Source: a virus. Taken from it: a stretch of 49,959 bases of DNA. The stretch spans positions 1-49,959 of the IMG/VR virus record IMGVR_UViG_3300050821_002558, one strand, 5' to 3'. The notes below the pieces were generated by a model. That model saw nothing but the letters and a program-made list of their open reading frames with translations, was not told the origin of the DNA and did no database searches. This document shows positions 2,922 to 41,090 of the stretch, piece by piece. Numbering within the stretch: the stretch's first letter is position 1; each line of letters opens with the position of its first letter. Made by a program: the position numbers and the translations under genes.

Positions 2922-3036
2922 CACAGCGATGCCCGACTGTGCAAATGCCCAACTCCTGCACGATGCGGCGGTCGTGGCGATTACGCTGTTGGTGCTCGCC
3001 ATCATGCTCATCGCTTGGTGGGCGTCGCGGCCGTGA
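2914..3036 (+). CDS. Membrane microprotein, 40 aa
   Basis: GTG 2914 overlaps the dcm stop (GTGA) and the stop overlaps the GTG of the next methyltransferase (GTGA at 3033). A single transmembrane segment runs through VVAITLLVLAIMLIAWWA (about residues 20-37), with a short polar N-terminus. No family is recognised. The perfect overlaps at both ends are the main evidence that it is translated. Confidence 0.65.
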   Translation: MSDTAMPDCANAQLLHDAAVVAITLLVLAIMLIAWWASRP

Positions 3037-29124: not shown

Positions 29125-30114
29125 TCAGGAAGTGGTCCAACTCGAGATGCGGCCGAGCTTGCCCTGCGTGCCGACGAAGGTGTTGGTCGAGGTCACGACG
29201 TTCCCCACGTTGGTCGTCAGGTACGTGCCATCCCCGCCGGTGGTGCCGGTGAGTTGCTCGAGGATCTGCACGTTCGCCGATCCTGGCAGGCCGCCGCCGC
29301 CGGTGGCGGAAATGAACTGCCCAGGCACGAGCACGCCCGAGCCGACCGCGGTCACGGTCAGGACTCCGAACGGGGTGCCAGCGGCCGGCAGTGCAAGCGA
29401 GCCGGTGAAGTCGCAGTCCGCCGCGACGACGCTCGCGACGTAGAACTGCGACTCCTGCACGCCGTAGTAGCTGGCAGCGACGGCCGTCACTACCGAGAAC
29501 GGGGTGCCGTCGGGGTTCGCGAGCTGGTACGTGCCCGTGCCGCCGGTGCCCGTGCCGAGCGAGGCGATGTAGGAACCTGGCGGCACTCCAACGGCCGAGA
29601 TTGGCTGGCCGACCGCGAGCGGCGTGCCGCTGATGGTGTTCACCGTCATCAGGCCGCCGACGGCGACGCTGATTGAGGTGATCGCGCCGGTGACGCTTTG
29701 CCCGGTGACGTTGCCCGACAGGGCGCCGGTCACGGGGTCGAAGTAGACCTTCTGCCCAGGCGTCGCGGGGGCGTTGAAGATGCCCCAAAAGTCGCCCTGG
29801 GCGAAGAGCGTCGCCATGTCCCCGCCGGGGATCTGCATCGTGGCGATGCCGAGGAACTGCGTGATGATGCCCTGGCCTTCGCGGTGCACGAAGCCGGGGA
29901 AGCTGTTCGGCTGGTAGTACGTGCTCGCGACTTTCGTCGCCGGGTTCGCCCACGCGCCGACGCCGACCGTGACGCCTTCGGGGGAGGCCACGTAGCCGAA
30001 GGCGCCGCCCAGGATGCTGGCGCGGATGTTGGCGCCTGCGAAGTCGCCGGCAGCAGCCGGGGGGAGTTCGTTGTTCACGAATGATTGGAAGCCGGTGCCG
30101 GTGCCAGGGGTCAT
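29125..30114 (-). CDS. Structural cement / decoration protein with inserted beta modules
   Basis: 329 aa. The N-terminal 120 residues (ASILGGAFGYVASPEGVTVG, HREGQGIITQFLGIATMQIP) match capsid cement proteins (gp24-like) that sit before DUF2184 capsids. The rest contains at least two copies of a GTYTLS-type module: PPGSYIASLGTGTGGTGTYQ and ANVQILEQLTGTTGGDGTYL. These copies lengthen the protein well beyond a minimal cement protein and would be exposed on the capsid surface. Confidence 0.8.
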   Translation of the reverse strand: MTPGTGTGFQSFVNNELPPAAAGDFAGANIRASILGGAFGYVASPEGVTVGVGAWANPATKVASTYYQPNSFPGFVHREGQGIITQFLGIATMQIPGGDMATLFAQGDFWGIFNAPATPGQKVYFDPVTGALSGNVTGQSVTGAITSISVAVGGLMTVNTISGTPLAVGQPISAVGVPPGSYIASLGTGTGGTGTYQLANPDGTPFSVVTAVAASYYGVQESQFYVASVVAADCDFTGSLALPAAGTPFGVLTVTAVGSGVLVPGQFISATGGGGLPGSANVQILEQLTGTTGGDGTYLTTNVGNVVTSTNTFVGTQGKLGRISSWTTS

Positions 30115-30157
30115 ACGGGACTCTCCTACAGGGTGAACGTCAGCGGACGGCTTGCCT

Positions 30158-31534
30158 TTAAGCGGCCTTCGTGCGGAACAGCGCGTCGATACTCACGAGC
30201 TCCTCCTGCGAGGAGTCCATGGCGAGCGTCGGAGGCGCGCCGGCGGTCGCTTTGCGGGTCTCGACTACCATGCGCACCAGTTCGGGCAACGCGGTAGCGT
30301 GCACGCCGTCGGTCTTTACCCCGGCGTGCTTCAACGCGAACTTGTAGACCTCCTCGGCGGAGTCCATGGCGACTGACACGACGCCCACGAGTGGGCGCAC
30401 TGCCTCGCGCGCCTCGGCAAGCTCGCGGAAAGATTTGCGCAGTTCGGTGGTGTTGGAGTCGAGCGCGGCGCGCACGGCCGCGTTCATCTCGTCCTTGGTC
30501 ACGCCGTCTTTGGCGCCGGGGTCGAAGTCCTTGCGGTGATCCACTTCTGCATCCTCGCCGGTCAGGTGGGCGGTTGCGTCCTTGGCTTCCTCGGGGTCCT
30601 TGTCCTTGCCCTTGGCGTCCTTGGCCTTGGCATCGCGCGCGGCTTTGTCGGCGGCCTTCTTGTCGCGCGCCTTCTTGTCCTTGGCCTTGCGATCGCGCGC
30701 GCGCTCGTACGCTTTTTCCTTGTCCTTGTCGTCGAGCTCGGCGTCTTCACCGTGCTCGGCTTTCTTCTCGGCGAGCGCCTCGTCCTCGGCGGCCTTCTTC
30801 TCGGCTTCATCCAGCGAGATGACCGACTCGGCCGGTGTCTCACCGAGGGCGGCGTCGAGAGCAATGGCGATCTTGCGCCGCTCCTCGACGGGGATCGACT
30901 TCACGAACGGGGCGAGCACCTTGGCGGCGACGGCGGCTGCGTTTTTCATGCGCGAGAACTCCGGCGGATTTTCGTCAGCAACGTGGACGTCGGGCCCGAC
31001 TCGGCCCTCGGAAACAATGGCGAGGTGATTGCCGCGGATGTTGACCATGCGGCCGTCATACTGAAGCCCACCCCAGGCGCCCGGCTCCATGAGCGCCTCG
31101 TACCGATACGCGGCTGACAGCTCGCGCTGTTCGCCGGTGTTGATGAGGTCGATCGCTTCCTGCGTGAGCACCATCAGCGGGCGCGTCACGAGGTACGGAT
31201 CTTCCCACGTCGTGCGCCCGACCGTGCCCACCCACAATTCCTTGCGCGGCAAGTCCGCGTCGATCGCGACGTGGCGGATGAGTAGCGGCTTGCCGTCGAA
31301 GGTCGACGCGCCCTTTTCCAGTTCCTTCGGGTCGCGAAACAGCCGGTAGGTGCGCTCGGGCTCGAGCCCTAAGCCCTGCCAGTTCGGGATCTCGCGCCCC
31401 AAGTACGGGCAGACGTTGGCTTTGGAGATCCGGCACTCTTCGACGCGCATGTGCCCGTCGGCATCGATGCTGCGAAGAGAGCGGTCGAGTGCGAGAGGGT
31501 CTCGCCTGCGCGCACGTCGACCGGGGACTAACAC
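30158..31534 (-). CDS. DUF2213 capsid maturation protein: protease-like N-terminus and charged scaffold C-terminus
   Basis: About 458 aa from GTG 31534 (a TTG at 31552 and ATG near 31451 are alternatives). The DUF2213 region is about 20-190: ISKANVCPYLGREIPNW, ELSAAYRYEALMEPG, MVNIRGNHLAIVSEGRVGPD. A run of about 90 residues rich in K, D, E and A (KDKEKAYERARDRKAKDKKA) follows, then a helical end. The type sits between portal and capsid genes and probably joins prohead protease and scaffold in one chain. Confidence 0.82.
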   Translation of the reverse strand: MLVPGRRARRRDPLALDRSLRSIDADGHMRVEECRISKANVCPYLGREIPNWQGLGLEPERTYRLFRDPKELEKGASTFDGKPLLIRHVAIDADLPRKELWVGTVGRTTWEDPYLVTRPLMVLTQEAIDLINTGEQRELSAAYRYEALMEPGAWGGLQYDGRMVNIRGNHLAIVSEGRVGPDVHVADENPPEFSRMKNAAAVAAKVLAPFVKSIPVEERRKIAIALDAALGETPAESVISLDEAEKKAAEDEALAEKKAEHGEDAELDDKDKEKAYERARDRKAKDKKARDKKAADKAARDAKAKDAKGKDKDPEEAKDATAHLTGEDAEVDHRKDFDPGAKDGVTKDEMNAAVRAALDSNTTELRKSFRELAEAREAVRPLVGVVSVAMDSAEEVYKFALKHAGVKTDGVHATALPELVRMVVETRKATAGAPPTLAMDSSQEELVSIDALFRTKAA

Positions 31535-31618
31535 AACGGGGTGGCGGCTCAATCACGCATTCCGAGTCCAAAGGTTGAACAGCAAAGGGGGGGAAGACTG
31601 TTCGGCTCGGAGGAAAGC

Positions 31619-31679
31619 AAAAAACTGTGCGAGGATCAAATACTTTCGAGACTTTCACACGCGGGGGTTGATCCTCGCA
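31619..31679 (-). terminator. Hairpin with T-run (leftward)
   Basis: TGCGAGGATCAA (31628-31639) is perfectly complementary to TTGATCCTCGCA (31668-31679), a 12-bp inverted repeat around a 28-nt loop. On the minus strand the stem is followed by CAG and six T (31624-31619). It would terminate or attenuate leftward transcription between the Mu F-like gene and the DUF2213 gene. The long loop is atypical. Confidence 0.5.
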
Positions 31680-31730
31680 GCGGATTTTGATATCTGCCTT
31701 ATCCTTTTTGGCCCCCGCGTTCTTCGGTTC

Positions 31731-31758
31731 TTGCGATTCAGGCGCGCGTCGCTAGAAT
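31731..31758 (+). promoter_or_regulatory. Promoter-like element pointing right, antisense to the late arm
   Basis: TTGCGA (31731-31736), 16-nt spacer, TAGAAT (31753-31758): a fair sigma-70 match. It points at the 31786-31842 hairpin. No gene follows on that strand, so if active it would make a short RNA antisense to the late transcript. Confidence 0.35.
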
Positions 31759-31785
31759 GCGCGGCGGCGCTCCACCCGAGCACCA

Positions 31786-31842
31786 CGGCAACCCCGGTGC
31801 GGTCAAGTCGCCTCCCCGTGACCGCTGCACCGGGGTTTGCCG
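31786..31842. ncRNA. Long stable hairpin, possible small RNA or processing structure
   Basis: Left arm CGGCAACCCCGGTGCGGTCA (31786-31805) pairs with 31819-31842 (TGACC, bulge GCT, GCACCGGGGTT, bulged T, TGCCG). That gives about 20 bp with two small bulges and a 13-nt loop. It starts 7 bp outside the stop of the Mu F-like gene on the left strand. No T-run follows in either direction, so it is not a clean terminator. Confidence 0.4.
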
Positions 31843-31849
31843 GCCCGCT

Positions 31850-32803
31850 TCACCTCTTCAGGCTTGCGGGAATGATCGCGCGGGACGTGCATCTGCAATT
31901 CGGGAGTTCCCCCGGCTGCACGTAGCTCTGCACGGCGCTGTCGTACATCCCCTTCGCGACCTCGAAGCGCTTGCCCGCCATGCGAACGTGCGTCGGGCGC
32001 GGCACCTTGCCGGCGTTGGAATGGACCCAGGTTGCCTCACGGATCCCCAACTCGGCGCGGCGCGCTTGTTCCATGACGGCTTTCGCCTTCGCCACTTGAT
32101 CGCGTGCGATGAAGGCTGCGCGCCGGTACGTGAGGCCGTACTTCTTGCGGATCGTGTCCGAGAGCGCGCCCATGGTGCCGCCCGTCATCACGTTGGTCCA
32201 CACCGAGGACTGCACGTCCTTCAGGAATTGCTGCGGGATTGAGCGAATGAGATTGACGTTCTCGGCGATCACCGCGCGGTACGCGGAGACCTGGCGCGCG
32301 GTGGGGCGGAACTTCACGGTGAAGCCCGCCTCCTTCAGGCGTCGGCGGAACGCCGCGTCCGTGTAGCGCTGCGACCTCGAGGCGAAGGAGGCGGCGATCT
32401 CCTTCGACATGTCGTCGAAGCGCTTCTGCCACACGCGGCCCCACACGCGCAGCGCCTTGCGCAACGTCACGATGGGGTCATCGTCGAGCGCCATGCGTGA
32501 GAGGGCCGGGCGGTAGTGCTTGCGCAGCTGGCGCAGCGCATCGGCTGCCATGCGCCGGGTGAGTTCCTGCAGCGCCTCGCGATACCAGCCGGCGACGCCG
32601 GCGTTGGGTTGAATGTGCTGCAACTCAACCGCGCCGTCGCCCATGACGCGCGCCCGTGGGGGCGGGGGCCCAGGTTCGGGTGGCGGCTCGGGCGGGGCCC
32701 GCTCGACGAGCTTCAGAGTGCCAGTACGTGTGACCATTCGCGCGGCCGCCATTCCCAGTCCTGGGTGTTGGCGTGCCAGATCCAACACCCGCCACGCCAG
32801 CAA
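31850..32803 (-). CDS. Head morphogenesis protein, Mu F / SPP1 gp7-like
   Basis: 317 aa; ATG 32752 is an alternative start. Helical middle, then the conserved C-terminus: RRAAFIARDQVAKAKAVMEQ, then ATWVHSNAGKVPRPTHVRMA and LPNCRCTSRAII with its CRC pair. The family binds the portal and helps prohead assembly. It follows the portal gene with three small membrane or unknown genes between, an unusual insertion. Confidence 0.88.
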   Translation of the reverse strand: MLAWRVLDLARQHPGLGMAAARMVTRTGTLKLVERAPPEPPPEPGPPPPRARVMGDGAVELQHIQPNAGVAGWYREALQELTRRMAADALRQLRKHYRPALSRMALDDDPIVTLRKALRVWGRVWQKRFDDMSKEIAASFASRSQRYTDAAFRRRLKEAGFTVKFRPTARQVSAYRAVIAENVNLIRSIPQQFLKDVQSSVWTNVMTGGTMGALSDTIRKKYGLTYRRAAFIARDQVAKAKAVMEQARRAELGIREATWVHSNAGKVPRPTHVRMAGKRFEVAKGMYDSAVQSYVQPGELPNCRCTSRAIIPASLKR

Positions 32804-32824
32804 ATGACGGCCGAGGTGATCACG

Positions 32825-33019
32825 CTATGTGCGCTGTATCGGATGCAGCCACGCGCCGAAGTTGCCGCTGATCATGAATGACAGCACCACGAAGAACCAT
32901 GCCCACGAAAACCAATTCCACGCGCGGCGCGGAGCGGAAGGCAGGGTCCAGCTAAGCCCGGAGATCGCGAAGCACACGAGCGCCAGGATTTGACACACGA
33001 AGATAGCGTTGTTCTGCAT
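32825..33019 (-). CDS. Small membrane protein, 64 aa
   Basis: ATG 33019. Two transmembrane segments: FVCQILALVCFAISGLSW (7-24) and WFSWAWFFVVLSFMISGNF (about 38-56). It is encoded next to another membrane gene between portal and head genes. The role is unknown; immunity, superinfection exclusion or envelope effects are possible. Confidence 0.75.
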   Translation of the reverse strand: MQNNAIFVCQILALVCFAISGLSWTLPSAPRRAWNWFSWAWFFVVLSFMISGNFGAWLHPIQRT

Positions 33020-33020
33020 G

Positions 33021-33194
33021 TCAGATTCTCCCGAGCAATACCAACACGAGCACGATGACGAGCACCACGCCGAGGATGCCGAGGCCACCGTTGCCGAAGC
33101 CGTACCCGTAGGGAATCGGCGCGCCCCACCGGTGACTGAAGCCGCCGAGCAAGAAGATAACCAACACGATGAGCAGAAGTGTACCGAGTGACAT
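33021..33194 (-). CDS. DUF3309-like membrane protein, 57 aa
   Basis: ATG 33194 with a strong ribosome site (aaaggagg) seven bases upstream. Two hydrophobic segments (LGTLLLIVLVIFLLGG and LGILGVVLVIVLVLVLLG) flank an aromatic, Gly-rich loop (HRWGAPIPYGYGFGNGG). This is the DUF3309 pattern common in bacteria. Probably an acquired gene; the strong ribosome site suggests high expression. Confidence 0.8.
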   Translation of the reverse strand: MSLGTLLLIVLVIFLLGGFSHRWGAPIPYGYGFGNGGLGILGVVLVIVLVLVLLGRI

Positions 33195-33231
33195 TTGCGT
33201 GTCCTCCTTTATCCGGGGCTCAACTGTTCGA

Positions 33232-33384
33232 TTATTTGGCCCGCAACGCCACGAGCGCCGCGGTGCGCACGTTGGAACTGCCCGTGCGACTCCATTGCCC
33301 GCCAGGTCGGTTGAGCCGCTCAATCACCGAGGCGTCGGGGTTCGTGCGGTACTGGCCGCCGAGCCACTCGAAGTAGGTCCACAT
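33232..33384 (-). CDS. Small hypothetical protein, 50 aa
   Basis: ATG 33384 to TAA 33232. It reads WTYFEWLGGQYRTNPDASVI at the start and ends SNVRTAALVALRAK. It fills the gap between the portal stop and the DUF3309 gene. The composition looks protein-like, but I do not recognise it and its ribosome site (gaggg) is distant. Confidence 0.5.
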   Translation of the reverse strand: MWTYFEWLGGQYRTNPDASVIERLNRPGGQWSRTGSSNVRTAALVALRAK

Positions 33385-33402
33385 ATTGGAGTTGCCCTCG
33401 TG

Positions 33403-35025
33403 TTAGGCCGCCGCCGGCTCCTCGCGCTCGCGCCGTGGCGCACCTGGCCGCGCTGCGCCTTCGTCCTCGTCGCTCGGGTCGTCGATCTCGTCGCCATCCT
33501 CGGGCGGCGTCGGCAATGCCGAGCCCGAGAGGTTGTCGTATCCAGACTCGGGGTCTGCGGCGATGCGGGCGCGCACCTCCTCGGGAGAGATCGCGCCCAT
33601 GTCCACATACGCCACGTCCATTTCGGACTGGGTTTTCTTCACGCGCGCGGCCGCCTCGCCGACGAGTTCCTTGAGCGCCACGAAGTCGAAAACGATATCG
33701 CTGTCGATTTTGCCGTAGCGGTTCAATTGGATCACGTCGAGGACCTTCTTCACGTTGTCGGTGAAGACGGCCTCTTGCTGCGAATGATTCCAGTCGTGGA
33801 AGACCTCGATCTCCCCTTCGCTCGAGGCGTTCAAGCCCGCCGGCGTGATACCGGTCATCACCACGAGCGGCAGGTGGGTGGGGGCTGCCATGTGCTCCTG
33901 CGCCTGGGATTGAAGCTCGGACAATCCCGAGAGCGGGACGGCGAGCTGTTGGAGCATTTCCCGTTCCTTGTCGGTGAGGAAGAGCCCCTGGTTATCGCGG
34001 CACTGCGTGAAGAACCGCGCGCGCTTGTCGAGTTCGTTGGTGGGCCCGCCGCCGAGTATCTCGCCCATGTCGGTTTGCAGGAAGATGACCGAGAAGTTGG
34101 CGATGAGCCGGTTCACGCTGTCCACGGTTTTCAGCCACCGCGCGACGTAGGCGTCGATCAATTGCGAGAGCGAGATACCGCCGAAGTTGTACGCCGGTTT
34201 GATGATATCGGGGACCTCGCGCGACACGAAGCGCAGCATCCGTGACTGGTGCGTCTTCCTACCTAACACCATCCAACTCTCGGGCTTGTAGAAGTTCGGG
34301 TGCGTCGGGTCGGTCGAGTTCCACGTCAGGGGCGTCGTCCAAATCGGCTCAATGTTCGCAAAGCCCCGCAGCGAGCCCTTCGGAATCGTTTTCTCGTCGA
34401 TCGCAAGGGGCAGCGCGTGGTCATCCCCGGTCGGGCCCTTGAAGTCCATGAACACGTGGCCTAGCCCGTAGAAGCCGTCGTGCTCCATGGCCTTGCGGAA
34501 GATCGCCTGCAGTTTGAAGGTCTCGAAGTCCTCGGTGATCTCCTCAATGATTTTGGTTTTGTCGCCCTCGCCTTTGCTCTTGAACGTGATCCACTTGCGC
34601 GTCATTTCCTTGGCGACTGTCTCGACGGGCTGGCGGTACTCGGTGCGCTGCGCGAGCTCGGCCAGATACGGGTAGCCGGGGAAGTACAGCCCGAAGGCGT
34701 TCAAGCCTGCGACGCTGTTCAGCCCTAAGAACTGCCCGAACGGGTAGCCGCCAGCGTCATCCATCGCCATGCGCGCCTTGACGGCGAGGCGCACGTCCTC
34801 GAGCACCTGGCGGCCCTTCGCGTCCATTGCCAGGGCCGGGTCCTCGACGAGTTTGAGCACCGCCGGCAGGAGCTTCGGCATCGCGAGCGTGTGGCGGTAC
34901 GGATCGGGCGGCGCGTTGCCGAGTGAGGCGCCGTCCTGAATTTCAAGCCCTGGCGCGCCTGCCGGCACAGGAGCGGGGCCGGTAACACCGAGCCAGGAGC
35001 GCAGGCGGTTGCGTAGCCATTTCAT
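33403..35025 (-). CDS. Portal protein, DUF1073 family
   Basis: 540 aa. ELAQRTEYRQPVETVAKEMT, AIFRKAMEHDGFYGLGHVFM, VARWLKTVDSVNRLIANFSV and MTGITPAGLNASSEGEIEVF are the typical blocks of DUF1073 portals. Some databases carry a misleading anti-CBASS label for this family; the packaging context here supports portal. The C-terminal 40 residues are acidic, then basic. The start overlaps the upstream stop (ATGA). Confidence 0.92.
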   Translation of the reverse strand: MKWLRNRLRSWLGVTGPAPVPAGAPGLEIQDGASLGNAPPDPYRHTLAMPKLLPAVLKLVEDPALAMDAKGRQVLEDVRLAVKARMAMDDAGGYPFGQFLGLNSVAGLNAFGLYFPGYPYLAELAQRTEYRQPVETVAKEMTRKWITFKSKGEGDKTKIIEEITEDFETFKLQAIFRKAMEHDGFYGLGHVFMDFKGPTGDDHALPLAIDEKTIPKGSLRGFANIEPIWTTPLTWNSTDPTHPNFYKPESWMVLGRKTHQSRMLRFVSREVPDIIKPAYNFGGISLSQLIDAYVARWLKTVDSVNRLIANFSVIFLQTDMGEILGGGPTNELDKRARFFTQCRDNQGLFLTDKEREMLQQLAVPLSGLSELQSQAQEHMAAPTHLPLVVMTGITPAGLNASSEGEIEVFHDWNHSQQEAVFTDNVKKVLDVIQLNRYGKIDSDIVFDFVALKELVGEAAARVKKTQSEMDVAYVDMGAISPEEVRARIAADPESGYDNLSGSALPTPPEDGDEIDDPSDEDEGAARPGAPRREREEPAAA

Positions 35026-36904: not shown

Positions 36905-37314
36905 TCCGCCCCGCTCACCATCGCGTGGTAAGCCCTCATGGCGTCATCGTCGGTGATCGCAGCGCTTGCGACTGCGTGCGCGATCGGCTTGCCGTCGAGG
37001 CCGCCGTGCTCGTGGCGGTAGCGCTCCTGCCACTCGCGGCCGCCTTGGGTTTTCATCCAGAAGATTTGCGCGGTGACGTTGCCCTTCATGCCGTTCTTGT
37101 AGAGCGCGCCGGCCATGTTCATGGTCGCCATGGTTTTGCCGAACTTGAGCTCGTCGCGATACTCGCGCAGGAGTTGCCGCGTACCGGTGCCGATCACCTT
37201 GGCAATGTCGTGGTGCGGCTTGCCCAGGATCGCGAGGAGCTGCACGCGAAGCCGCGACTCCTCGGTCGGCTGGTGCGGCGGGCGCCCCTCGGGTCTGCCG
37301 GTGCGTTTCCTCAT
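36901..37314 (-). CDS. terS: Terminase small subunit
   Basis: 137 aa from ATG 37314 (ATGA overlap upstream). A basic N-terminus (RKRTGRPEGRPPHQPTEESR) precedes a helix-turn-helix-like segment (VQLLAILGKPHHDIAKVIGT) and helices with KTMATMNMAGALYKNGMKGN and IFWMKTQGGREWQERY. The pattern is typical of small terminases that recognise pac/cos DNA. It sits directly before terL. Confidence 0.88.
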   Translation of the reverse strand: MRKRTGRPEGRPPHQPTEESRLRVQLLAILGKPHHDIAKVIGTGTRQLLREYRDELKFGKTMATMNMAGALYKNGMKGNVTAQIFWMKTQGGREWQERYRHEHGGLDGKPIAHAVASAAITDDDAMRAYHAMVSGAE

Positions 37315-38546
37315 GCGCGCTCGGCCTTGACGTCCGCGAACGGGCGGTTCTCGAGCGTGGCCGCTTCCCCGGTGAAGCGCTGGTAGCGCTCGCAAATGAT
37401 GTCGACGTTGCGCGGTTCCATTTCCATGAGCGAACAGACGCGGTGCTCTTGCTGCGCGGCAATCAGGGTTGAGCCCGAGCCGGCGAAGAGGTCGATGACG
37501 AGTTGCCCCTCCTCGCTCGAGTTATTAATCAGCCACGCCAGGAGCGCCACGGGCTTCGCCGCGTTGTGCTCGCGCTCGGCGCCGGCGACGCGGTTCGTGC
37601 GGAAAATGTTCGGCTTGTGCACCGGGCGCTGCCCGCGCTTATTGCCCGACGTCATCGCCTTTTGCCTGGGGAGCTTGGCGAAGAAGGCCACGAACTCGTG
37701 CGTGTTGGCGTAGGAGTTCCCGAGGCCGGCGGAGCCCTTGTCCCACACGACGCAGTTCTTCGGCGCCAGCTGCGCGGACTTGAGCCCATGCCACAAGGTG
37801 GCGTAGCTGCGCCAGTCGCAGTGCACGTAGATATGCCCGAACTCGAGCGTGTTGTCCGCGAGCACACGCCCCAACTTCTCGAAGAAGGGCCGCACCATTT
37901 TGTCGTCGGCGATATCGGTGGCGATGCCGGTGCTCGAGCCGTAAATCGCATACGGCGGATCGGTGAGCACGAGGTTTGCCTTGTGATTGCCCAGGAGCCG
38001 CGCGACGTCCTCGGGCTCGAAGGTGTCACCGCACAGGACCCGATGAGGACCTAAGCACCACAAATCCCCAGTGCGCGCCACGGGGTGCTTCGGGCTTTCG
38101 GGTATGTCATCCGCACCAGCTCGCCCGGTCGGTGTTAGGTTCAGGAGCCGCCGCAGTTCCTTGTCCGAGAACCCGATCACCTCGAGCGTGAAGCCGTCCT
38201 CCTTGAGCGCGGAGAGTTCAAACGTCAGGAGGTCATCGTCCCACGCGGCGTTCAACGCGAGTTGGTTATCCGCCATAACCAGCGCGCGCTTCTGTTGTTC
38301 GGTGAGCCCCTGCAGTTCAATCGCGGGCCCTTCCGTGAAGCCTTCCAACATCGCCGCCTCGCGTCGCCCGTGGCCTGCGATGAGGTTCAAGTCCGAGTCC
38401 ACCAGTAGCGGGTTAGTGAAGCCGAACTCGCGGATGCTCGCGCGCAACTGTTGGATTTGCTCGGGCGAGTGGACGCGCGCGTTCTTCTCCCAGGGCTTCA
38501 GCGCCGCCAGCGGGACCTTTTTGTAAGCGTGTCGCAGTTCGCTCAT
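37311..38546 (-). CDS. ParB-like nuclease domain fused to DNA methyltransferase
   Basis: 411 aa from ATG 38546. Residues 10-75 form a ParB/sulfiredoxin-like domain (LIAGHGRREAAMLEG at 55-69). The methyltransferase follows: motif IV TDPPYAIYG (195-203) and motif I DLFAGSGSTLIAAQQ (about 364-378), beta order, N6-adenine by the DPPY. Such fusions modify phage DNA and may bind specific sites near the packaging genes. Confidence 0.92.
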   Translation of the reverse strand: MSELRHAYKKVPLAALKPWEKNARVHSPEQIQQLRASIREFGFTNPLLVDSDLNLIAGHGRREAAMLEGFTEGPAIELQGLTEQQKRALVMADNQLALNAAWDDDLLTFELSALKEDGFTLEVIGFSDKELRRLLNLTPTGRAGADDIPESPKHPVARTGDLWCLGPHRVLCGDTFEPEDVARLLGNHKANLVLTDPPYAIYGSSTGIATDIADDKMVRPFFEKLGRVLADNTLEFGHIYVHCDWRSYATLWHGLKSAQLAPKNCVVWDKGSAGLGNSYANTHEFVAFFAKLPRQKAMTSGNKRGQRPVHKPNIFRTNRVAGAEREHNAAKPVALLAWLINNSSEEGQLVIDLFAGSGSTLIAAQQEHRVCSLMEMEPRNVDIICERYQRFTGEAATLENRPFADVKAERA

Positions 38547-38722
38547 TTGCGCCACCGGCGCTTCACGCGGTCGCCAGGTTCGCCGGCGCCGAACCGACAC
38601 GGCGGCGCGTGCCCGTGCTCGCGCTGGCAGCGGAACAGCAAGCACTTGCCCTTTCGGCCAATCATGAACTGCACCGTCACCGGGCAGGCGCCAGGCAGCG
38701 GCGGGCGCGTGCGGCGGGACAC
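38543..38722 (-). CDS. Small Cys/His protein, 59 aa
   Basis: GTG 38722. CPVTVQFMIGRKGKCLLFRC and QREHGHAPPC provide Cys and His ligands for a possible zinc site; the ends are basic. The stop overlaps the ParB/methyltransferase start (ATGA). Confidence 0.6.
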   Translation of the reverse strand: MSRRTRPPLPGACPVTVQFMIGRKGKCLLFRCQREHGHAPPCRFGAGEPGDRVKRRWRK

Positions 38723-39417: not shown

Positions 39418-39866
39418 GCGGGTTGCCTCCACCCTCGAGCGGCGAGCACGCGCAGGGTCATCTCGATTGCGCGCTTGGGCTTCACGTACTTCTGCGGGAA
39501 GCGCAGCACGGTCCACCCTAGGAGCGCGGCGGTGTTGTATTTGTCCATGTCCTCGATGATCCCCTTGATACTGCCGTGACGGCCCGCGACTACCATGAGC
39601 CCGGACGGCAGGCGCCGCGGCACGAGGCCTTCGATCTCGACCGCGAGCATGTGCGCGCGGAAACAGAAGTCGAAGCGCCAGTGCCGCCCGTGCGTGGCCT
39701 TCGCGAAGAGGTGCTGCCGCTCGACCGTGGGCAGACAGTACGCCCGGCACTGGGCGGCGAACAAATCCTCGGGCCCGTCCTCCTTGCCAGGGCCGGCGGT
39801 CGGCTCCCCGAGCTCGTGCTCGTCCCACTCGGTGAGCTTCAGTTCCCGCTGACGTCGGGCCCTCAT
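39414..39866 (-). CDS. Putative PD-(D/E)XK-type endonuclease
   Basis: 150 aa from ATG 39866 (ATGA overlap). RFDFCFRAHMLAVEIEG supplies an acidic core (Asp and Glu before and in the strand), and GRHGSIKGIIEDMDKYNTAA with LGWTVLRFPQKYV resembles the Vsr/DUF559-like fold. It may act as a mismatch, branched-DNA or resolvase-type nuclease. The exact family is uncertain. Confidence 0.65.
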   Translation of the reverse strand: MRARRQRELKLTEWDEHELGEPTAGPGKEDGPEDLFAAQCRAYCLPTVERQHLFAKATHGRHWRFDFCFRAHMLAVEIEGLVPRRLPSGLMVVAGRHGSIKGIIEDMDKYNTAALLGWTVLRFPQKYVKPKRAIEMTLRVLAARGWRQPA

Positions 39867-40615
39867 GTGAAGCACATACCGCTGCCGCACTGGTCGAGCA
39901 AATCACCCTGCGCCTCGCCGAGTTCGGCGCTGTCGAGCGGTTTGCAGGAGCGATGCAGGAACAGCGCCGGGTCGATTTTGCGCACGTCGCGCTCGAGCGC
40001 TACCGCTGCCTCGAAGTCCTGGGGATCGGTGCGTTTCAAGTGCAGCCACTCGGCGTCGCTACGGTATGGGCACATCCAGCACGAAGAGCGCGGAGGCTGC
40101 GGCCAGCCCATGCGCAACACGAGCGCCACGCAATCGGTGCGCGTCAGGCGCCGGTCGATCAACGGGTACGTGTGATTCCATTTCGCTTGCGGATCGTGCG
40201 AGCGCGCCCGGTAGTATTCGTCGATAGAAAACCCGATCCAGATTGTGCCGCCTGTGAGGCCGAGGCTGCGGTAGTAGCGCTCCACGGGTCGGCTCTTCCA
40301 CTCATTCGAGCAATATTTGCGCGTCTGCCCAGGGCTGCCCGCCTGTGAAGTAAACATCGGCATGAGCGCCGTCGTACCTTCTGCGCCGCCGAACAAATCA
40401 ACGGTCGCCCACGCATGGGGCAAGCGCTCGAGCTTCACGCCGGCGCGCGCGAGCGCCGGTCGCATCGTGCCCTCGTGGTAGCGCCAGGTTTCCGAGGCCT
40501 CGCGCCCAGTGTCGGCAATGACCGCCGCATCCGGCACCGGAAGGTCGCCGCGGCAGATTAGCGCGGCAATGGCTGCGCTTTGTACCCCGCCACCACAGGA
40601 CCACACGACGCTCAT
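39863..40615 (-). CDS. PAPS-reductase-like / N-type ATP pyrophosphatase protein
   Basis: 250 aa from ATG 40615. The PP-loop is SCGGGVQSAAI (about 6-16), an SGGxxS-type ATP site. KYCSNEWKSRPVERYYR and SCWMCPYRSDAEWLHLKRTD are typical of the phage PAPS-reductase-like group, with C-x2-C pairs that may bind metal or sulfur. Related enzymes activate substrates by adenylation, including DndC of DNA phosphorothioation. A nucleotide- or DNA-modifying role is inferred only. Confidence 0.78.
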   Translation of the reverse strand: MSVVWSCGGGVQSAAIAALICRGDLPVPDAAVIADTGREASETWRYHEGTMRPALARAGVKLERLPHAWATVDLFGGAEGTTALMPMFTSQAGSPGQTRKYCSNEWKSRPVERYYRSLGLTGGTIWIGFSIDEYYRARSHDPQAKWNHTYPLIDRRLTRTDCVALVLRMGWPQPPRSSCWMCPYRSDAEWLHLKRTDPQDFEAAVALERDVRKIDPALFLHRSCKPLDSAELGEAQGDLLDQCGSGMCFT

Positions 40616-40812
40616 CGCTCGGCCTTCTCGGTGACGAGCTTGGCCTGTTCGTGCGGCAAGAACCCGACGTCGAGCCACCAGCGCCCGTCTTGATCCCACC
40701 GGATTTGCCCGAGGAGCATCCCAGGAGCACCGAGCGCGGCGGTAGCCTGCACCCGGTCGTAGTACGGGCGCAGTTGCCGCACCTGTTTCTCGGTGAGAAT
40801 CACGCGGCTCAT
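40612..40812 (-). CDS. Hypothetical protein
   Basis: 66 aa from ATG 40812, overlapping both neighbours by ATGA. VILTEKQVRQLRPYYDRVQA is helical and WDQDGRWWLDVGFLPHEQAK follows. No domain recognised. Confidence 0.7.
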   Translation of the reverse strand: MSRVILTEKQVRQLRPYYDRVQATAALGAPGMLLGQIRWDQDGRWWLDVGFLPHEQAKLVTEKAER

Positions 40813-41090
40813 TTGCGTGCGTGCCGCTTCCTGTGTTTCGCCCGCCTGTGCGGCGGATGGTTGCGGACGTACTTCTGCGCAGCCTTGATCCATGCGGGCG
40901 ATACGCTAAGCGCGTCAGTGATCCGCGCAGAGACCGTATCGGGCACCTTGCCTTCAAGAAAAGCGAGGTAGTGCTGCGCACGCTCGATGACTTCCTCCGG
41001 TGTTGATTGCGCATAGGTTGCGCCCTCCGGTCGCGCCTCGGCCGCCCACGCGAGCCGCAGGGCTTCGAGCCGCAGTGCTTCAATGTCCAT
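40809..41090 (-). CDS. Hypothetical protein with basic C-terminus
   Basis: 93 aa. Helical N-terminus (MDIEALRLEALRLAWAAEAR), centre STPEEVIERAQHYLAFLEGK, and a His/Arg/Lys-rich end (HPPHRRAKHRKRHARK) that could bind nucleic acid. Confidence 0.7.
   Translation of the reverse strand: MDIEALRLEALRLAWAAEARPEGATYAQSTPEEVIERAQHYLAFLEGKVPDTVSARITDALSVSPAWIKAAQKYVRNHPPHRRAKHRKRHARK

Follow-up and report, generated by a model that had tools for sequence, protein, structure and literature searches.

Sequence comparison indicates that the gap between the minor head gene and the head maturation protease gene of this phage contains a real, conserved and single-copy regulatory element. Tentatively, and with slightly less than even confidence, we read it as a clade-specific promoter and leader that would start a separate protease-capsid transcript with a 5' hairpin. 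On the minus strand, its core would be a promoter-like unit made up of TTGATC (31639-31634), 17 nt and a TG-extended TTTCCT (31616-31611), and the transcript would begin at about 31603, open with the 5' hairpin and reach the protease start after about 69 nt. The capsid proteins, which are abundant, could then be produced without relying on the transcript for terminase, portal and minor head. Immediately upstream sits an inverted copy of the recognition sequence, facing outward, and the two copies form an inverted repeat (H1); they probably co-vary because both are recognised by one protein, either the host RNA polymerase or a phage factor that assists it, and in read-through mRNA they would also form a hairpin. 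What we infer in this proposal is the promoter activity, the start site, the function of the 5' hairpin and the identity of the factor.

The window, i.e. the whole stretch of DNA that was analysed, is a 49,959-base virus record. The phage has a tail sheath and all of its late genes run leftward, in the order small and large terminase, portal (PF06381), a small moron-like gene, Mu F-like minor head, DUF2213 protease, cement protein, major capsid protein and tail genes. A ParB-like nuclease fused to a DNA methyltransferase (37311-38645, minus strand) adjoins the terminase genes, and a phosphoadenosine phosphosulfate reductase-like gene lies at 39863-41083 (minus strand). An earlier note on this DNA had placed an empty gap at 31553-31849 within an otherwise packed late arm. 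The gap is real with the listed TTG start at 31552, but proteases of the relatives begin MLELSGR.. or MLQISGR.., matching GTG 31534 and not the TTG. The GTG is thus more likely to be the start of the window protease, and with the start moved there the gap becomes 31535-31849 (315 nt). Nor is the arm wholly packed, small moron-like gene(s) also lying between portal and minor head. The gap is an A+T-rich trough, with about 50% G+C versus 65% in the flanks. Most window late genes show no clear Shine-Dalgarno sequence, and none was seen in the protease leader. The features of the junction are listed in the table.

Table. Features of the minor head/protease junction (positions in the window).
Feature	Position	Strand	Remark
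DUF2213/head maturation protease gene	30158-31534	-	start re-assigned to GTG 31534
Intergenic leader, minor head gene to protease gene	31535-31849	-	sense is the minus strand
Predicted 5' hairpin GAACAG-(C-rich loop)-CTGTTC	31577-31603	-	from folding of the leader; about 7 nt after the -10-like hexamer
TTTCCT, -10-like hexamer of the sense unit	31611-31616	-	17 nt downstream of TTGATC; preceded by TG (TGC-TTTCCT)
H1 downstream arm TTGATCCTCGCA	31628-31639	-	
TTGATC, -35-like box of the sense unit	31634-31639	-	inside the H1 downstream arm
H1 upstream arm TGCGAGGATCAA	31668-31679	-	pairs with 31628-31639
Outward (antisense) unit copy TTGATC-17-TATCTG	31668-31696	+	
Promoter-like TTGCGA-16-TAGAAT	31731-31758	+	ranks first among sigma70-type sites of the + strand; L013 has a different -35
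H_B, small hairpin adjoining H_A	31764-31786	-	better paired on the sense strand
H_A, long G+C-rich hairpin	31786-31842		only in the window and its nearest relative, L013
Mu F-like minor head/head morphogenesis gene	31850-32803	-	

The key part of the gap is H1, not the long hairpin or the rightward promoter, the latter two being shared only with L013. H1 is the 12-bp hairpin with a leftward T-run of the earlier note: the inverted repeat is perfect, has a 28-nt loop and is followed by CAG-TTTTTT on the minus strand; the fold of 31628-31679 has a z-score of -3.2. Relatives were contigs encoding related minor head and protease proteins. Conservation of structure among them had been set beforehand as the test, and the 12-bp element is indeed kept, at the same junction, in six other phages (L013, L014, L015, L017, L018 and L021) with protease identity down to 53%. 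Deposited phages include no near DNA relatives of the window, and deposited phages and plasmids contain only distant proteases, below 60% identity. The position of the element, its conservation, its fixed spacings and its covariation are matters of direct observation. In a hand alignment of 13 pairs from the seven phages, for which arms were picked for complementarity and slid controls came out far lower, 6 of the 13 pairs have changed on both sides and 93% of cells are paired, values reached by 0 of 500 shuffles on four of five measures and by 2 of 500 on the fifth. On the sense strand, the non-Watson-Crick pairable cells comprise five G-U and zero A-C, although three of the five lie in one column and are not independent, and this bias leans towards RNA. 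Single hairpins also fold better than shuffles in the window, L015, L018 and L021.

The strong arm covariation and the G-U-only wobble count against the promoter reading, since they fit an RNA hairpin at least as well, and an RNA hairpin in the late mRNA is its main rival. H1 would then be a site of attenuation, or of processing by an endonuclease (RNase III-type), splitting the upstream message from a stabler protease-capsid message, a possibility that we consider real but on the unlikely side. It draws further support from other lineages, in which ordinary intrinsic terminators occur at the same junction (19 of 79 gaps versus 1.2 in shuffles). Against it, three phages (L061, L004 and L016) keep the downstream arm at this junction with no partner arm within 80 nt, there are blocks at fixed offset outside the arms, and the arm-to-arm spacer varies (14, 26, 28, 28, 50, 50 and 50 nt), making with the non-conserved T-run a poor intrinsic terminator. 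The T-run after H1 is missing in L015, L017, L018 and L021 and kept only in the nearest relative, L013, so that the attenuator finds no support in the form described and an ordinary terminator is unlikely here. An intrinsic terminator at H1 was rejected on the T-run, the 28-nt loop and the CAG between stem and T-run; a scan for intrinsic terminators found none on the minus strand at the gap, and a search of the window against Rfam 15 gave 0 matches above gathering score.

The arms are also more conserved than pairing needs, with invariant AGG, C and A columns. This would be expected if they were the half-sites of a DNA operator bound by a phage or host regulator, acting as a dimer or by looping to control the capsid promoter, and half-sites of one protein would likewise change together, as the arms do. 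We nevertheless regard an operator as improbable: the 14- to 50-nt arm spacing does not follow whole helical turns, a single arm is enough in three phages, and neither the window nor the longer relative records contain a second full copy elsewhere. The partnerless arms, fixed outer blocks and variable spacer together indicate that conservation acts on a unit of one arm with its outer block, present as two inverted copies, rather than on the arm pair. The outer arm, too, carries a promoter-like block at fixed spacing, in this case pointing rightward, to judge from the aligned sequences: at the same offset as the TATCTG of the window, relatives have TATTAG, TAGAAG, TAAAAG or TATTTA, and beyond the outward unit a CTTTT (31704-31708) is conserved; six phages share TA and CTTTT columns at fixed offset. 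With an inter-arm spacer of 14 to 50 nt and this fixed-offset outward block, two back-to-back promoter-like units fit better than a single hairpin. As a separate observation, L016, which lacks the inverted arm, has a second, direct TTGATCCCCACTC copy in its leader (record G009:8089-8101).

The core of the promoter and leader reading is the sense unit. Ten phages share the arm on the protease side, TTGATCCTCGCAC, together with a block at a constant distance downstream of it (TTGATC-17-TTTSCT, often TG-extended); these sequences are few and not independent, the motif having been found post hoc. The unit occupies the same junction in the window, L013, L014, L015, L017, L018, L021, L061 and L004, with a weaker copy in L016, and its -10-like hexamer reads TTTGCT, TTTTCT, TCTGCT or TTCTAT in relatives. 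It stays adjoining the protease in L014, L017 and L061 despite genes inserted upstream, and in L004 one gene comes after it. With TTGATC as the anchor, the number of columns outside the core that lay above the 99% null was 14 on the sense side and 13 on the outward side (1 expected each), the sense-side columns T..TG.TTT..T being at fixed offset in nine phages. The geometry is that of TTGATC, 17 nt, a TG-extended second hexamer, a G+C-rich stretch, a purine and then, in several members, a C-rich-loop hairpin some 7 nt past the hexamer; hairpins similar to the one predicted in the window are predicted in L013, L014, L015 and L021.

TTGATC, or a close form of it, is present in nearly all members and matches the -35 consensus TTGACA at 4 of 6 positions. 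As for the -10 hexamer, the spacer of 17 and the final T are present, an A at position 2 is absent in nearly all members, and canonical -10 hexamers are confined to relatives whose site is a different one. With a plain E. coli sigma70 matrix, to whose training the clade sequences had not contributed, the sense unit scored highest upstream of the protease in 8 of 16 clade loci (window, L013, L014, L015, L016, L018, L021 and L061). Where the unit is lacking, the same matrix found better canonical sites in its place in L019 (TTGACA-18-TATAGG), L022 (TTGACG-17-TATGCT) and L064. Combined promoter scores gave P = 6e-11 versus other windows of the same loci and P = 0.004 versus composition-keeping shuffles, the latter being modest support, and single-locus scores versus shuffles were mostly not significant (P = 0.15 for the window).

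The sense unit thus resembles sigma70 TG-extended -10 promoters in its TTGA at -35, its 17-nt spacer and the TG one base before the second hexamer, as well as in the G+C-rich stretch and the purine at the expected start. It differs from them in that TTTSCT has no A at the second position, which sigma70 needs, and in that the first hexamer lies within a longer conserved 13-mer, suggesting an extra factor. Two other assignments were rejected: a sigma54 promoter (GG-N10-GC), because direct reading of the aligned sequences gives CG-N11-GC in the window and no GC there in L015; and an IHF site (WATCAA-N4-TTR), whose core by eye loosely fits some members and leaves the conserved GTGCGAGG unexplained. 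Gene 10 of T7 is a phage capsid gene with its own promoter and a processed or hairpin-led leader. The leader predicted here is similar in having an extra transcript start just before the capsid module and a 5' hairpin, and differs in that the element precedes the protease and not the capsid gene itself. A scan of about 30 window proteins noted no phage RNA polymerase, and the literature yielded no transcript map for a phage with this head cassette. We also entertain, as an improbable and more speculative extension, that capsid production in this uncultured phage clade is controlled by a twin back-to-back element for a non-standard RNA polymerase, which the phage would have modified or supplied with a factor of its own; base pairing would keep the copies matched, and one sequence would be both DNA promoter and RNA hairpin. 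In bacterial bidirectional promoters, both directions share one symmetric -10 element and the start sites are 10-23 bp apart (Warman et al., PMC12825309; PMC10268837). Like these, the gap element is a short stretch with promoter-like sequence both ways; unlike them, it has two separate -35-like boxes that stand back to back at a distance of 14-50 nt, each with a different -10-like block and these blocks far apart, and it lies inside an operon between co-oriented genes.

The earlier note had instead proposed a short antisense RNA, which on this model would be made from the rightward promoter-like site through the long hairpin, the 12-bp hairpin and T-run attenuating late transcription. TTGCGA-16-TAGAAT is present as claimed; it is the sole consensus promoter match within 30000-34000 (0.5 expected), and no other sigma70-type site on the + strand scores as high anywhere in the window. 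The long hairpin is also real, although its 20 bp are broken by bulges. Its fold is very good on either strand (z = -3.65 sense and -5.0 antisense versus shuffles when the small hairpin next to it is included), and in L013, the nearest relative (protease 98% identical), the distal stem is replaced with a matching, compensating change on the opposite side. Yet of the two things that an antisense RNA calls for, a conserved + strand promoter and a defined 3' end, neither was found: L013 keeps TAGAAT with TTGCTT replacing TTGCGA, promoter and long hairpin are missing in the other relatives, and no T-run follows the long hairpin on either strand. In shorter-gap relatives both are absent and the 12-bp element is still there. 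Some antisense unit may nevertheless exist, as the outer H1 arm has its own rightward promoter-like block. The antisense and attenuator model, very unlikely as an account of the junction, is at most a local addition in the window phage and its nearest relative.

What does stand from the earlier note is the view of the gap as a regulatory junction, with the minor head gene on one side and the protease and capsid genes on the other, and other lineages bear on it. In 105 loci the minor head-to-protease distance ranges from 29 to 1916 nt, which marks the junction as a hotspot for moron insertion in a broad group of phages. The gap could on that account consist mostly of moron-insertion remains whose structures are now functionless; we hold this to be highly improbable, as the core element covaries and keeps its fixed spacing across divergent phages. 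The sense-strand intrinsic terminators of other lineages with the same gene pair, several of which are homologous copies of one sequence and so represent fewer lineages than the counts, are found just upstream of the protease in 7 of 99 cases, just downstream in 2 of 99, and about 1 kb upstream of the minor head stop in 2 of 91. Examples (AGGTCGC..GGCGGCCTTTTTT and others) lie 64-69 nt upstream of the conserved protease region in L008, L231, L192, L212, L220, L206, L071 and L285. These terminators make the boundary between portal/minor head and protease/capsid seem a place where transcription is reset, by different means. The general question is how hundreds of capsid subunits but few portals come from one operon; here a single-copy element is conserved exactly at the boundary and relatives have canonical promoters or terminators there, which offers a natural comparison on a defined 130-bp piece.

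The exact composite sense pattern of the element occurs in 3 stretches in all IMG/VR, two from clade members and one unrelated, and a wide scan with GAGGATCAA..TTGATCCTY returned 79 stretches, chance matches except for two clade members. When prophages were searched for in the order to which two related MAGs belong, no additional clade members came up. Two related MAG-borne phages (L067 and L068) have TTGAYYCGCTAACGCTAACG in common at the same junction upstream of the protease, perhaps their version of the element. Lastly, the window encodes a small predicted membrane protein (..LSFMISGNFGAWLHPIQ..; 32825-33088, minus strand) between portal and minor head, and L014 has, upstream of its position 3001, a look-alike (..LSLMISAIQLHPIAR) between minor head and protease; by eye, this moron seems to have shifted by one gene between the two phages.
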